DNA of 36,767 bases, taken from Ancalomicrobiaceae bacterium. Lineage in GTDB: Bacteria; Pseudomonadota; Alphaproteobacteria; Rhizobiales; Ancalomicrobiaceae. The position numbers and the translations under genes are program-made. This document shows positions 23,241-26,194 of this stretch, in pieces. The DNA is taken from contig JARLIU010000264.1 of the NCBI GenBank assembly GCA_031291595.1, forward strand, positions 1 to 36,767, given 5' to 3'. Every line of letters begins with the position of its first letter. The first letter of the stretch is position 1. The notes below the pieces were generated by a model. It was not told where the DNA came from, ran no database searches, and worked only from the letters and a program-made list of their open reading frames with translations.

Positions 23241-23735
23241 TCACCGCGCCAAGGCATTGATCGGATCGTTCGGGCGGGGCTCGACCCCCTTGGCTGCCAC
23301 CAGCGCGTCGAGCTTGTCGGTCGCTTTCTTCACCTGCTCGTTCGCCCCCTTCTTCGGGATCGAACCAGTCAGATCGCCGGCCTTGCCGATGGCGAGCATG
23401 CGCGACGGCTTCGCCGGATCGACCGTGCCGTCGTCCGGCTTCGAGGCGGCCGGGCGCATCGGGATCTCGTCGATACTCGCCACCTGTCCGGGCTCGAGCC
23501 GGTCGAGCTCGAGATAGTTGTGGTACTTCTCCACCAGGTCCTGCAGGCGTTTCGGCTGATTGAGCAGGCTCCATTCGGCCTTCAATCCGGCAATCGCCTC
23601 GCGCGTATCGGAAATCTTGTGCTGCAGCTTGGCGATGCGGCCCGCCGCCCGCTCGCTGTCGTATTTCATCAGGTAGACGACGCCGGCTCCCAGCAGCATC
23701 AGGCCGATCAGCACGACATTGAACGTCTTCAGCAT
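23241..23735 (-). CDS. ftsL: Cell division protein FtsL
   Basis: Small bitopic membrane protein that, with FtsB and FtsQ, links early division proteins to FtsWI. It has 164 residues. A short N-terminus and one membrane span at about residues 5-24 are followed by a coiled coil (about 28-75) containing [21 protein letters not shown], typical of alphaproteobacterial FtsL. A longer Pro/Lys-rich tail follows, which makes it bigger than the 121-residue E. coli protein. It overlaps rsmH by seven bases and sits directly before ftsI. Identity rests on position and topology as much as on sequence, because FtsL is poorly conserved. Confidence 0.9.
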
Positions 23736-24787
23736 GCGGCACCTGTCGGCTTCGGCAGCACAGCGACGGCGGGCACGCCAAGTTCGGCAAGATCGATCGG
23801 CCGCGCCGCTGCCGCCGTCCTGATCCCGGCCCGGAGCTTGGCCGAGCGCGCCCGCGGATTGCCCGCGACTTCGGCTTCGCCCGCGATGACTGCGGCTTTT
23901 TCGATCAGCCGGAAGGTCGGATCCGGCACCCGCGTCTCCGGCGCATGGCGCGAACCGCCGGCCGTCTCGCGGCTGCGATCGGCGAAGAACCGCTTGACGA
24001 TGCGGTCTTCCAGCGAATGGAAGCTGACGATCACCAGCCGCCCGCCGGGCTTCAGCACCTGTTCGGCTGCGGCAAGCGCAGAAGCCAGTTCATCGAGCTC
24101 GCCGTTGACGAAGATCCTGAGCGCCTGGAAGGCACGCGTCGCCGGATGGATGTCGTCGTGGCGGCGCTTGCCCCAGCCGACGACGCGTTCGGCCAGGCCC
24201 GCCAACTGCCGGGTGCGGATGAACGGCTCGGCGTCGCGATCGGCGACGATGGCGCGGGCAAGCGCGTTCGAGCGCTTTTCCTCCCCCAGCACCCAGAAGA
24301 TGCGGGCCAGATCGCGCTCGTCGAGCCGGTTGACGACGTCCGCGGCGCTCGGCCCATCTTGTCCCATGCGCATGTCGAGGGGCCCGTCGTTGCGGAAGGA
24401 GAAGCCGCGCTCCGCCTGATCGAGCTGCATCGACGACACGCCGATATCGAGCACCACGCCGTCGACAGCGGCGATGCCGAGATCGGCGAGATGCTGGTCG
24501 AGCGCGCCGAAGCGGCCGTTGACGAGCCGCAATCGTCCGCCGGTCGCCTGCACCAGGGCCTCGCCGGCAGCGATCGCCGTCTCGTCGCGGTCGATGGCGA
24601 CGACCTCGGCGCCGGCAGCCAGGATCGCGCTTGTATAGCCGCCGGCCCCGAAGGTGCCGTCGACGATGGTCTCGCCGGCTTGCGGCCCAAGCGCGGCCAG
24701 CACTTCGGCGAGCATCACCGGCAGGTGACGGCCTGCGGGCTCGCGTGCGGCGATGTCGGGGCCAGGCGTCTCACGGTCAGGCGTCAT
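23729..24787 (-). CDS. rsmH: 16S rRNA (cytosine(1402)-N4)-methyltransferase RsmH (MraW)
   Basis: SAM-dependent methyltransferase that modifies C1402 of 16S rRNA. It has 352 residues from ATG 24787. The typical opening [13 protein letters not shown] is followed by the SAM loop [14 protein letters not shown] and AIDRDETAI. Further on are [22 protein letters not shown], the acidic PLDMRM, and the late [17 protein letters not shown]. The start overlaps the mraZ stop as ATGA. The frame stays open upstream but reads through mraZ in another frame and is not protein-like there. Confidence 0.97.
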
Positions 24788-25260
24788 GGCGCTCCTCCGT
24801 CCGAGACCCCCGGCCGCGCCGGTCCGCCCTGCCGCACGAGTCGTGCCGCAGTCTGCCGTGCCTCCGCTTCGAAGGCCCGGAACCGCTCCGGCTCCCAAAT
24901 CTGAAAGGTGGTTCCCAAGCCGACGAAGACGATCTCCTCGCCGATAGCCGTCGCCTGCCTGAGCCAGTCCGGCACGACGATGCGGCCCTCCGCATCCAGG
25001 CTCAGCGTATCGCCGGCTCCGAGCAGCGCAGTCGACAGCGCATGGTGCTCGGGCGAAAAGCGGTCGAAGCGCGCAAGCAGGGTGTCGATCTCGGCGATCA
25101 ACGCATTGCCGCCGGCCTCCACTGCGTTTGAGACGGGCGAGCATACGACGAACAGCCCATCGAAACCGTCGCGCGCCAACACCGCCCTGAATGGCGCTGG
25201 AATGGACACCCGTCCCTTGGCATCGATGCGCTTGGCGTGTCGGCCGAGAAAGCGGTCCAT
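24784..25260 (-). CDS. mraZ: Transcriptional regulator MraZ
   Basis: DNA-binding protein of the AbrB-like fold that heads the dcw cluster and, in E. coli, represses its own promoter. It has 158 residues from ATG 25260, giving the typical opening MDRFLGRH and then [15 protein letters not shown]. The second copy of the swapped-hairpin motif, [14 protein letters not shown], is also present. In-frame ATGs at 25278 and 25299 would add 6 or 13 residues; AAGGGAG just before 25260 favours the short form, though spacing is tight. It is followed without a gap by rsmH. Four regularly spaced TGGG repeats lie upstream (25486-25519). Confidence 0.94.
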
Positions 25261-25485
25261 CACTCCCTTTCCAGCCATGCTGCGGGCCGATCGAGCCATT
25301 TGCCCGGCCCCGTCCCGCGCGACTTCCACGCCCCGAGCCCGGCGACCAGGCTCCCGTTCCCGCAAGGATCCGGCGCGCAAACGCCGACCCCGGCATCCCG
25401 CACCGGGAGAGACGGCACCATCGGTCCGCCGCACCGGCTGGCGGGCAGCCGCAGCGTTCGAACGATGTGCCGACCGAACCACGAT

Positions 25486-25519
25486 TGGGATGAATTGGGA
25501 TATCATGGGCTGATATGGG
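25486..25519 (+). promoter_or_regulatory. Four TGGG direct repeats at 10-bp period: candidate MraZ operator
   Basis: TGGG occurs at 25486-25489, 25496-25499, 25506-25509 and 25516-25519, exactly one helical turn apart and on one face of the DNA. E. coli MraZ binds three TGGGN repeats separated by 5 bases upstream of mraZ, the same 10-bp period. Here the repeats read on the strand opposite to mraZ, about 225-260 bases before its start, and overlap a putative promoter. Confidence 0.75.
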
Positions 25520-25525
25520 CGTCAA
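25497..25525 (-). promoter_or_regulatory. Putative promoter of the dcw operon (Pmra)
   Basis: On the - strand TTGACG (25525-25520) is followed after 17 bases by TATCCC (25502-25497). The -35 is near consensus and the -10 matches only TAT. Transcription would start near 25490, leaving a leader of about 230 bases before mraZ. The spacer and -10 coincide with the second to fourth TGGG repeats, as expected for repression by MraZ. Confidence 0.5.
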
Positions 25526-25579
25526 TGGATCGAGGCATGCCGGTCCCCGGCGCGCTGCAACGATTAAGCATCCGGTAGT

Positions 25580-25595
25580 GTTAAATTGGTCTTTA
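25580..25595 (-). promoter_or_regulatory. CtrA-like box upstream of the mraZ promoter
   Basis: On the - strand TAAA-N7-TTAAC matches seven of eight core bases of TTAA-N7-TTAA plus the preferred final C. It lies about 60 bases upstream of the putative Pmra -35 element. Cell-cycle control of the cluster by CtrA would make sense, but a match of this quality can arise by chance. Confidence 0.3.
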
Positions 25596-25767: not shown

Positions 25768-25784
25768 AAAAACGTCAGTCGGCC
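25768..25784 (-). terminator. rnpB terminator (P1 3' strand plus T run)
   Basis: Directly after the 3' strand of helix P1 the - strand reads TTTTT (25772-25768). The P1 stem followed by a U run would act as the intrinsic terminator of rnpB. Confidence 0.55.
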
Positions 25785-26194
25785 TGTAAGCCGGGTTCTG
25801 TACGGTGGGGTTACCCCCACGTGGCGGCCATTCATCTGGGACGCCCGTTGCCGGACGCCTCGCGCAACCAACCCGGGCGACTGGTCTGGAAAAGACTGGG
25901 GTTGCCCCCACGCCGCCCCTATTCGGTTTTGCTCCCGGTGGGGTTTGCCATGCCGGCACCGTTGCCGGCGCCGCGGTGGGCTCTTACCCCACCTTTTCAC
26001 CCTTACCGCATCGACGCCCCCGCCGGAGGCTCGCATCCCCTGGCGCTGATGGGACGAACCGGCGCGGCGGTTCGATCTCTGTGGCACTTTCCCTGAGGTC
26101 GCCCTCGCCGGGCGTTACCCGGCACCGTCTTTCCATGGAGCCCGGACTTTCCTCCCCCGCGTGACGCGGGAGCGGCCGCCCGGCCGACTGACGC
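25773..26194 (-). ncRNA. rnpB: RNase P RNA, bacterial class A
   Basis: Catalytic RNA of ribonuclease P, which trims the 5' ends of tRNA precursors. On the - strand the 5' part carries the universal GAGGAAAGTCCGGGCTCC (complement of 26137-26154). Next come GGTAAGGGTGAAA and AGAGCCCACCGC, then AGATGAATGGCCGCC and the 3' ACAGAACCCGGCTTACAGG. The ends pair as helix P1 (GCGTCAGTCGGCC with GGCCGACTGACG). The ends are set by P1 and may be off by a few bases. Being next to mraZ agrees with rhizobial genomes. Confidence 0.97.

Follow-up and report, generated by a model that had tools for sequence, protein, structure and literature searches.

The dcw cluster is the main operon for cell division and the cell wall, and MraZ is its widespread regulator. 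The MraZ protein of Escherichia coli is said to bind TGGG repeats, a result attributed to Eraso et al. in 2014, and the E. coli mraZ leader is 38 nt long. The accessible part of PMC8475190 describes MraZ of both E. coli and M. genitalium as a repressor and cites Fisunov et al. (2016) for the Mollicutes MraZ box, AAAGTG[T/G]. In Burkholderia cenocepacia the promoter PmraBc carries four 7-nt repeats separated by 3-nt spacers, and MraZ binds the fragment (accessible part of PMC7761207). For Alphaproteobacteria, Weber et al. (PMC5089854, part available) give an mraZ leader of at most 70 nt in Caulobacter and one of 170 nt in Sinorhizobium meliloti, the latter derived from public reads and placed within a predicted terminator; neither 'TGGG' nor 'repeats' occurs in the main text of that paper as available. 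A leader of about 268 nt has been published for Rhodobacter sphaeroides. Our literature search found nothing on MraZ binding or expression in any alphaproteobacterium and no publication on the orientation of MraZ boxes or on reversed boxes in this class; it covered the key MraZ literature incompletely, and an earlier description of reversed boxes is possible. No associated paper was found for the MraZ entries 9qlg, 9qlr, 9r4j, 9sx6 and 9sz7 of the PDB, and a viral scan using E. coli MraZ gave no match.

The repeat array and the mraZ promoter

The window is a stretch of 36,767 nucleotides from an Ancalomicrobiaceae bacterium (contig JARLIU010000264.1, assembly GCA_031291595.1), in which mraZ heads the dcw genes and is followed by rsmH (Table 1). 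By its sequence the product of the first gene is MraZ: it scored 43.2 bits against PF02381, which is over the cut-off, and 158.9 bits against NCBIfam NF001477, slightly below the cut-off of 162, and all four of the PDB entries that it matched at E 0.001 were MraZ. Two D-x-x-G-R motifs are the hallmark of the family, and the protein contains DAKGR and DAEGR. The likely start codon is the conserved ATG at 25260 (MDRF...), preceded by AAGGGAG; the protein used as query and in the tools (P0001) starts at the ATG at 25278. RsmH was identified from the E. coli-like gene order and its own search matches rather than by a family scan.

Table 1. Coordinates of the features at the mraZ locus of the window
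Feature	Position	Strand	Remarks
MraZ-type box 1, TGGG	25486..25489	+	+1 to +4, at the predicted start; slot +2 of the promoter
MraZ-type box 2, TGGG	25496..25499	+	overlaps -10 TATCCC; slot +1
MraZ-type box 3, TGGG	25506..25509	+	adjoins TG of extended -10; slot 0
MraZ-type box 4, TGGG	25516..25519	+	immediately downstream of -35; slot -1
Degenerate fifth box, TGGA, in phase	25526..25529	+	upstream edge of -35; slot -2
-35 element, TTGACG	25520..25525	-	TTGAC at matching offset in relatives
-10 element, TATCCC	25497..25502	-	TG at 25505-25504 makes extended -10 (TGaTATCCC)
Predicted transcription start	25489 plus or minus 2	-	spacing transferred from S. meliloti
Predicted 5' leader of mraZ, ~229 nt	25261..25489	-	inference
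mraZ coding region including stop	24784..25260	-	family profiles; conserved start
rsmH (mraW), second gene	23729..24787	-	starts at 24787; overlaps mraZ stop
RNase P RNA gene (rnpB)	25771..26191	-	next upstream gene, same direction; 297.5 bits
Possible CtrA-like site, TTAA-N7-TTAA, one mismatch	25581..25595	.	~55 bp upstream of -35; weak

Four TGGG words stand upstream of mraZ between 25486 and 25519 with an exact period of 10 bp, and they are read on the strand opposite to the gene; the initial annotation had given both the spacing and the strand correctly. When one mismatch at most was allowed, a search of the window for three words in phase gave three matches, all of them overlapping at the array, compared with a mean of 0.14 in shuffled sequence. 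The assembly comprises 5.25 Mb and is 95.65% complete; in it the exact three-word pattern was found at the array site alone, as two overlapping matches, and the pattern read backwards was found nowhere.

The bases of the repeats also hold the putative promoter, as had been proposed from the presence of TTGACG and a TAT-type -10; the two hexamers are 17 bp apart on the mraZ strand. A consensus promoter scan of the window did not report the array site, because TATCCC lacks T at the sixth place. The start of transcription was predicted from S. meliloti. A start eight bases past TATCCC in record L331 would produce a leader of exactly 170 nt, and gaps of 4-9 bases after the -10 would produce leaders of 173-168 nt; L331 is strain 4H41, which may differ from the strain behind the published leader. 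Carrying this spacing over puts the start in the window at about 25489, close to the earlier estimate of 25490. The four boxes would then begin at about -30, -20, -10 and +1. L530 (G228, family f74) has a degenerate core with two mismatches; its -10 would give a leader of about 268 nt, and we take the resemblance to the published R. sphaeroides length as a lead only. CtrA-like sites were seen in the 200 bp that precede the -35 in 75/215 regions and in 20/215 mononucleotide shuffles.

Distribution of the array and its link to mraZ

P0001 served as the query to locate mraZ genes, and we compared the sequence preceding each of them over up to 700 bp. The order sample contained mraZ in 136 of 199 genomes and, with five extra members of the family, gave 141 regions (family and genus included); the class sample contained it in 161 of 190 genomes, and all of these except G000 and G094, 159 in number, were examined, some of the regions being cut by contig ends. 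Second, partial mraZ matches in G038 and G083 were excluded. The initial annotation had proposed an alignment of such regions, and the phased repeats proved to be kept: at least three TGGG words at exactly 10 bp, opposite to mraZ, were present in 91/141 order regions and 96/159 regions from the rest of the class. On the mraZ strand, at least three phased words were found in 0/141 and 2/159 regions and at least two in 16/141 and 15/159. The core, CCCATGNTATCCCA, was present with at most two mismatches in 140/141 order and 138/159 class regions. Reversed-sequence controls (order and class, respectively) gave 0 and 0 arrays and 0 and 1 cores, and when 131 order and 83 class regions were each dinucleotide-shuffled ten times, at least three TGGG words appeared in 1/1310 and 0/830 cases. 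The core on the other strand, again within two mismatches, was found in 14/224 regions against 1/224 in the shuffle. Better-scoring regions predominated among the first 83 of the class, and the remaining, weaker 76 were included against bias; at least three phased words were found in 33/76 of the latter and the core in 59/76. The 50/141 order and 63/159 class regions with fewer than three exact phased words count against the operator reading. The core was absent within two mismatches from 21/159 class regions, 17 of them from the weaker-scoring set and two shortened.

The spacing of the words was strict. Over 224 regions, opposite-strand TGGG pairs were 10 bp apart in 437 cases, 9 bp apart in one and 11 bp apart in 10; the mraZ strand had 37 pairs at 10 bp, a small unexplained excess. 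We aligned 217 of these regions on the core (138 from order, family and genus and 79 from the class), dropping five that were coreless and two with the core near the region end. TTGAC lay 16 or 17 bases ahead of the core in 117/138 and 59/79 regions, and in the former group 105 regions had it at the offset of the window and 12 had it displaced upstream by one base. Slots -1, 0 and +1 were CCCA in most aligned regions, slot +2 in the order was CCCG in 62/140 and CCCA in 44/140, and TCCA was the commonest content of slot -2 in the order sample (50/140, mraZ strand). The spacer that bears the -10 is conserved (TGnTAT) and the one separating slots -1 and 0 varies, as expected for an operator interlaced with a promoter.

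The initial annotation had read the four copies as a sign of higher co-operativity. Four copies are ordinary: at least four phased words opposite to mraZ were counted in 30/141 order and 55/159 class regions. We rejected a special co-operativity of the four-copy form, since relatives alternate between three, four and five copies, with slot +2 often CCCG, and four repeats have been published for B. cenocepacia.

Several upstream regions departed from the common form. The two class regions with three same-strand words are L499 and L530; in both, the words lie well upstream of the core and are unlike the E. coli arrangement. In L530, two groups of three phased mraZ-strand words stand 550-605 bases before mraZ, about 300 bp upstream of its degenerate core. 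L461 (Sphingomonas parapaucimobilis) encodes an annotated, diverged MraZ and has no phased boxes upstream, and neither have L535 and L537 (family f64), the gene start of L537 being uncertain. Loss of autoregulation is possible in these boxless Sphingomonas and f64 genes.

Genomes without mraZ offered a further comparison. No MraZ match was found in 63 of the 199 order genomes, and a profile of 65 alphaproteobacterial MraZ proteins gave no match at E 1 in these genomes; rsmH matches were found in 61 of the 63. Given that mraZ went undetected often across whole families of the order while rsmH was kept, the gene has seemingly been lost more than once. After exclusion of six genomes (two without an rsmH match and four with fragments or weak matches), 57 rsmH upstream regions were usable. 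At least three phased TGGG words, on either strand, were found in 0/57 of them; two phased words occurred in 3/57 and the core, with two mismatches, in 1/57. Anywhere in the genome, the exact three-word pattern was found in 20/63 mraZ-less genomes, in 14/63 when read backwards, and in 97/136 mraZ-bearing genomes. The 20/63 is little above the backwards count and none of these arrays is at rsmH, so we regard them as background and rejected them as operators. One of them, L315 (G174), consists of perfect 10-bp tandem repeats inside a Fic-domain-like reading frame and was rejected as an mraZ operator.

The exact composite pattern was also sought in a genome collection, where it matched at least 120 stretches. 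Among the 80 matches listed and checked for mraZ, the gene lay 67-234 bp downstream in the same sense in 78; in the other two the sequence ended within about 110 bp. Going by their titles, the listed matches presumably come from alphaproteobacteria or unspecified Proteobacteria, apart from one MAG labelled Nitrosomonas (L358), which has the exact alphaproteobacterial composite ahead of mraZ and may reflect mis-binning or transfer. The pattern TTGAC-n2-CCA-n6-CCCATGnTATCCCA would be a strong marker for locating mraZ promoters. In L316 (G061, contig C388), phased TGGGGTAAAA repeats stand just upstream of a reading frame that presumably resembles fabI, and are possibly a second target; the upstream region of mraZ in the same genome (L095) has no TGGG run.

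Orientation of the boxes and alternative explanations

The orientation of the repeats had been marked for comparison with E. coli, and the two differ. In E. coli K-12 the mraZ strand carries three TGGG words, which lie 43, 33 and 23 bases ahead of the start codon; with the 38-nt leader these start at about -5, +6 and +16 and span about -5 to +19. A layout with boxes on the mraZ strand and downstream of the -10 does not describe the window, where they are on the opposite strand and over the -10, the spacer and the start. A search of the phylum matched 66 genomes outside the class, of which 40 were examined: on the mraZ strand 35/40 had at least two phased GTGG words and 22/40 at least three, while on the other strand 9/40 had two and 0/40 had three. 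A plasmid collection, which includes misfiled chromosomes, contained 36 records with MraZ, of which 15 were examined. Together with E. coli, these gave 14 named non-alphaproteobacteria, from Aeromonas, Burkholderia, Neisseria, Listeria, Bacillus, Subdoligranulum, Paenibacillus, Nonomuraea, Tsukamurella, Phocaeicola, Microbacterium, Monoglobus, Bacteroides and Escherichia. At least two phased GTGG words were on the mraZ strand in 12/14 and at least three in 10/14, and three on the other strand in 0/14; Burkholderia and Monoglobus had single GTGG words only, and visual inspection of B. stagnalis showed GTG repeats on the mraZ strand. In S. meliloti four TGGG words lie on the other strand, and Sphingomonas has none in phase. 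Most of the species sampled in other classes, and in three further phyla, thus have the same-strand form, and the alphaproteobacterial boxes seem, from these comparisons, to differ from most other bacteria sampled in reading ATGGG, in lying on the opposite strand and in being placed inside the core promoter.

One could envisage that the array belongs to another regulator, such as CenR or CtrA, or consists of promoter elements only, with MraZ a bystander. CenR is enriched upstream of mraZ in R. sphaeroides, without its motif and undiminished in inactive-system strains, and S. meliloti mraZ has been reported with a CtrA motif, according to the accessible parts of these reports; moreover, the -10 portion of the core is promoter sequence. 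We nevertheless consider this very improbable, given that all 57 rsmH regions without detectable mraZ lack a three-box array, that slots -1 and +2, outside the hexamers, still keep the 10-bp phase, and that the E. coli mraZ promoter carries three TGGG words at an identical period. Control of the promoter by a G-quadruplex formed from the four GGG tracts is scarcely credible. The usual motif for such structures is G3+N1-7, and the window, with loops of 7-7-7, formally falls within it; a G-quadruplex has also been reported for S. aureus mraZ, downstream of its promoter in the part of that account available. A quadruplex needs neither loops of exactly 7 nt nor the A and T ahead of GGG, yet the pairs of words keep almost entirely to 10 bp, and fewer than four consecutive GGG tracts are present in 59/140 and 39/79 relatives, against four in 81/140 and 40/79.

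Two further alternatives accept MraZ as the ligand. It might bind the array and chiefly activate, or merely tune, the promoter; the number and quality of the boxes vary, and we found no alphaproteobacterial expression data. We regard this as improbable, as boxes over the -10, the spacer and the start suit repression, which is also the role described for MraZ in E. coli and M. genitalium. The boxes might instead represent a new motif, read as CCCAT along the mraZ strand, with MraZ having adapted to it, rather than an old operator reversed. The base before TGGG is A in 484/646 alphaproteobacterial boxes (224 regions) and G in 48/49 boxes of other Pseudomonadota (40 regions), and the contact would therefore have changed besides the strand; the reversed strand together with this changed base could cast doubt on an identical protein-DNA contact. 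On the other hand, the common TGGG, the 10-bp period and the direct repeats fit a reversed site with one base change, and we consider a new motif unlikely. It is fairly probable that early in the Alphaproteobacteria the operator was reversed, went from GTGG to ATGGG and was rebuilt in the core promoter, so that some 35 bp would serve as both promoter and operator.

Proposed mechanism and comparison with known systems

The array is very probably an MraZ operator placed inside a sigma-70-type promoter of mraZ-rsmH-dcw, acting in autorepression by occlusion. The earlier proposal, which placed an MraZ operator over the dcw promoter, is well supported indirectly by the conservation across the class, by the lack of arrays at rsmH where mraZ is undetected, by the conserved promoter with its predicted start near 25489 and by the composites that precede mraZ. 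Ring-forming MraZ would bind successive ATGGG boxes on a single face of the DNA, the boxes being spaced by one helical turn. In the predicted class layout the -10 (TGnTATCCC) would fill one inter-box spacer and the -35 (TTGACG) would lie immediately upstream of a box; bound MraZ would occupy the promoter between about -30 and +4 and exclude RNA polymerase, placing mraZ-rsmH-dcw under negative autoregulation by occlusion. Since a ring on one face would extend over the -10, the spacer and the start, occlusion is the likeliest means of repression, and autorepression in Alphaproteobacteria is likely. For this class we infer the binding, the repression, the ring geometry and the evolutionary history. 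If the class-wide reversal is true, there is no need for the MraZ ring to keep one direction on the DNA with respect to RNA polymerase and, the same-strand form being found elsewhere, the class would have undergone a rewiring of dcw autoregulation. The layout also provides a precise prediction of the dcw promoter in Rhizobiales and their relatives, and a clean comparison of one protein family and one period in opposite directions.

Phased MraZ boxes, four copies included, are already known, and the reversed, promoter-embedded layout would be the new aspect. In the Mollicutes the mraZ promoter region likewise has a series of direct repeats, and the box sequence differs (accessible part of PMC8475190). 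The dcw leader of R. sphaeroides with UpsM also belongs to an alphaproteobacterial mraZ and is long (PMC5089854, part available). The B. cenocepacia promoter shares the 10-bp period and the four copies with the window, and it differs in having a GTG motif that lies downstream of the -10 and overlaps the start, in the portion of PMC7761207 available. The E. coli operator has in common with the window the TGGG direct repeats, their 10-bp period and their position at the first dcw promoter (mraZ1p). The likeness to E. coli drawn by the initial annotation holds for the word and the period; its description as the same operator plus one copy is wrong, because the E. coli repeats are on the mraZ strand and not within the promoter. 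In E. coli the box reads GTGGG and shares its strand with mraZ, whereas the consensus of the class is ATGGG on the opposite strand, and the boxes of the window extend from about -30 to +4.
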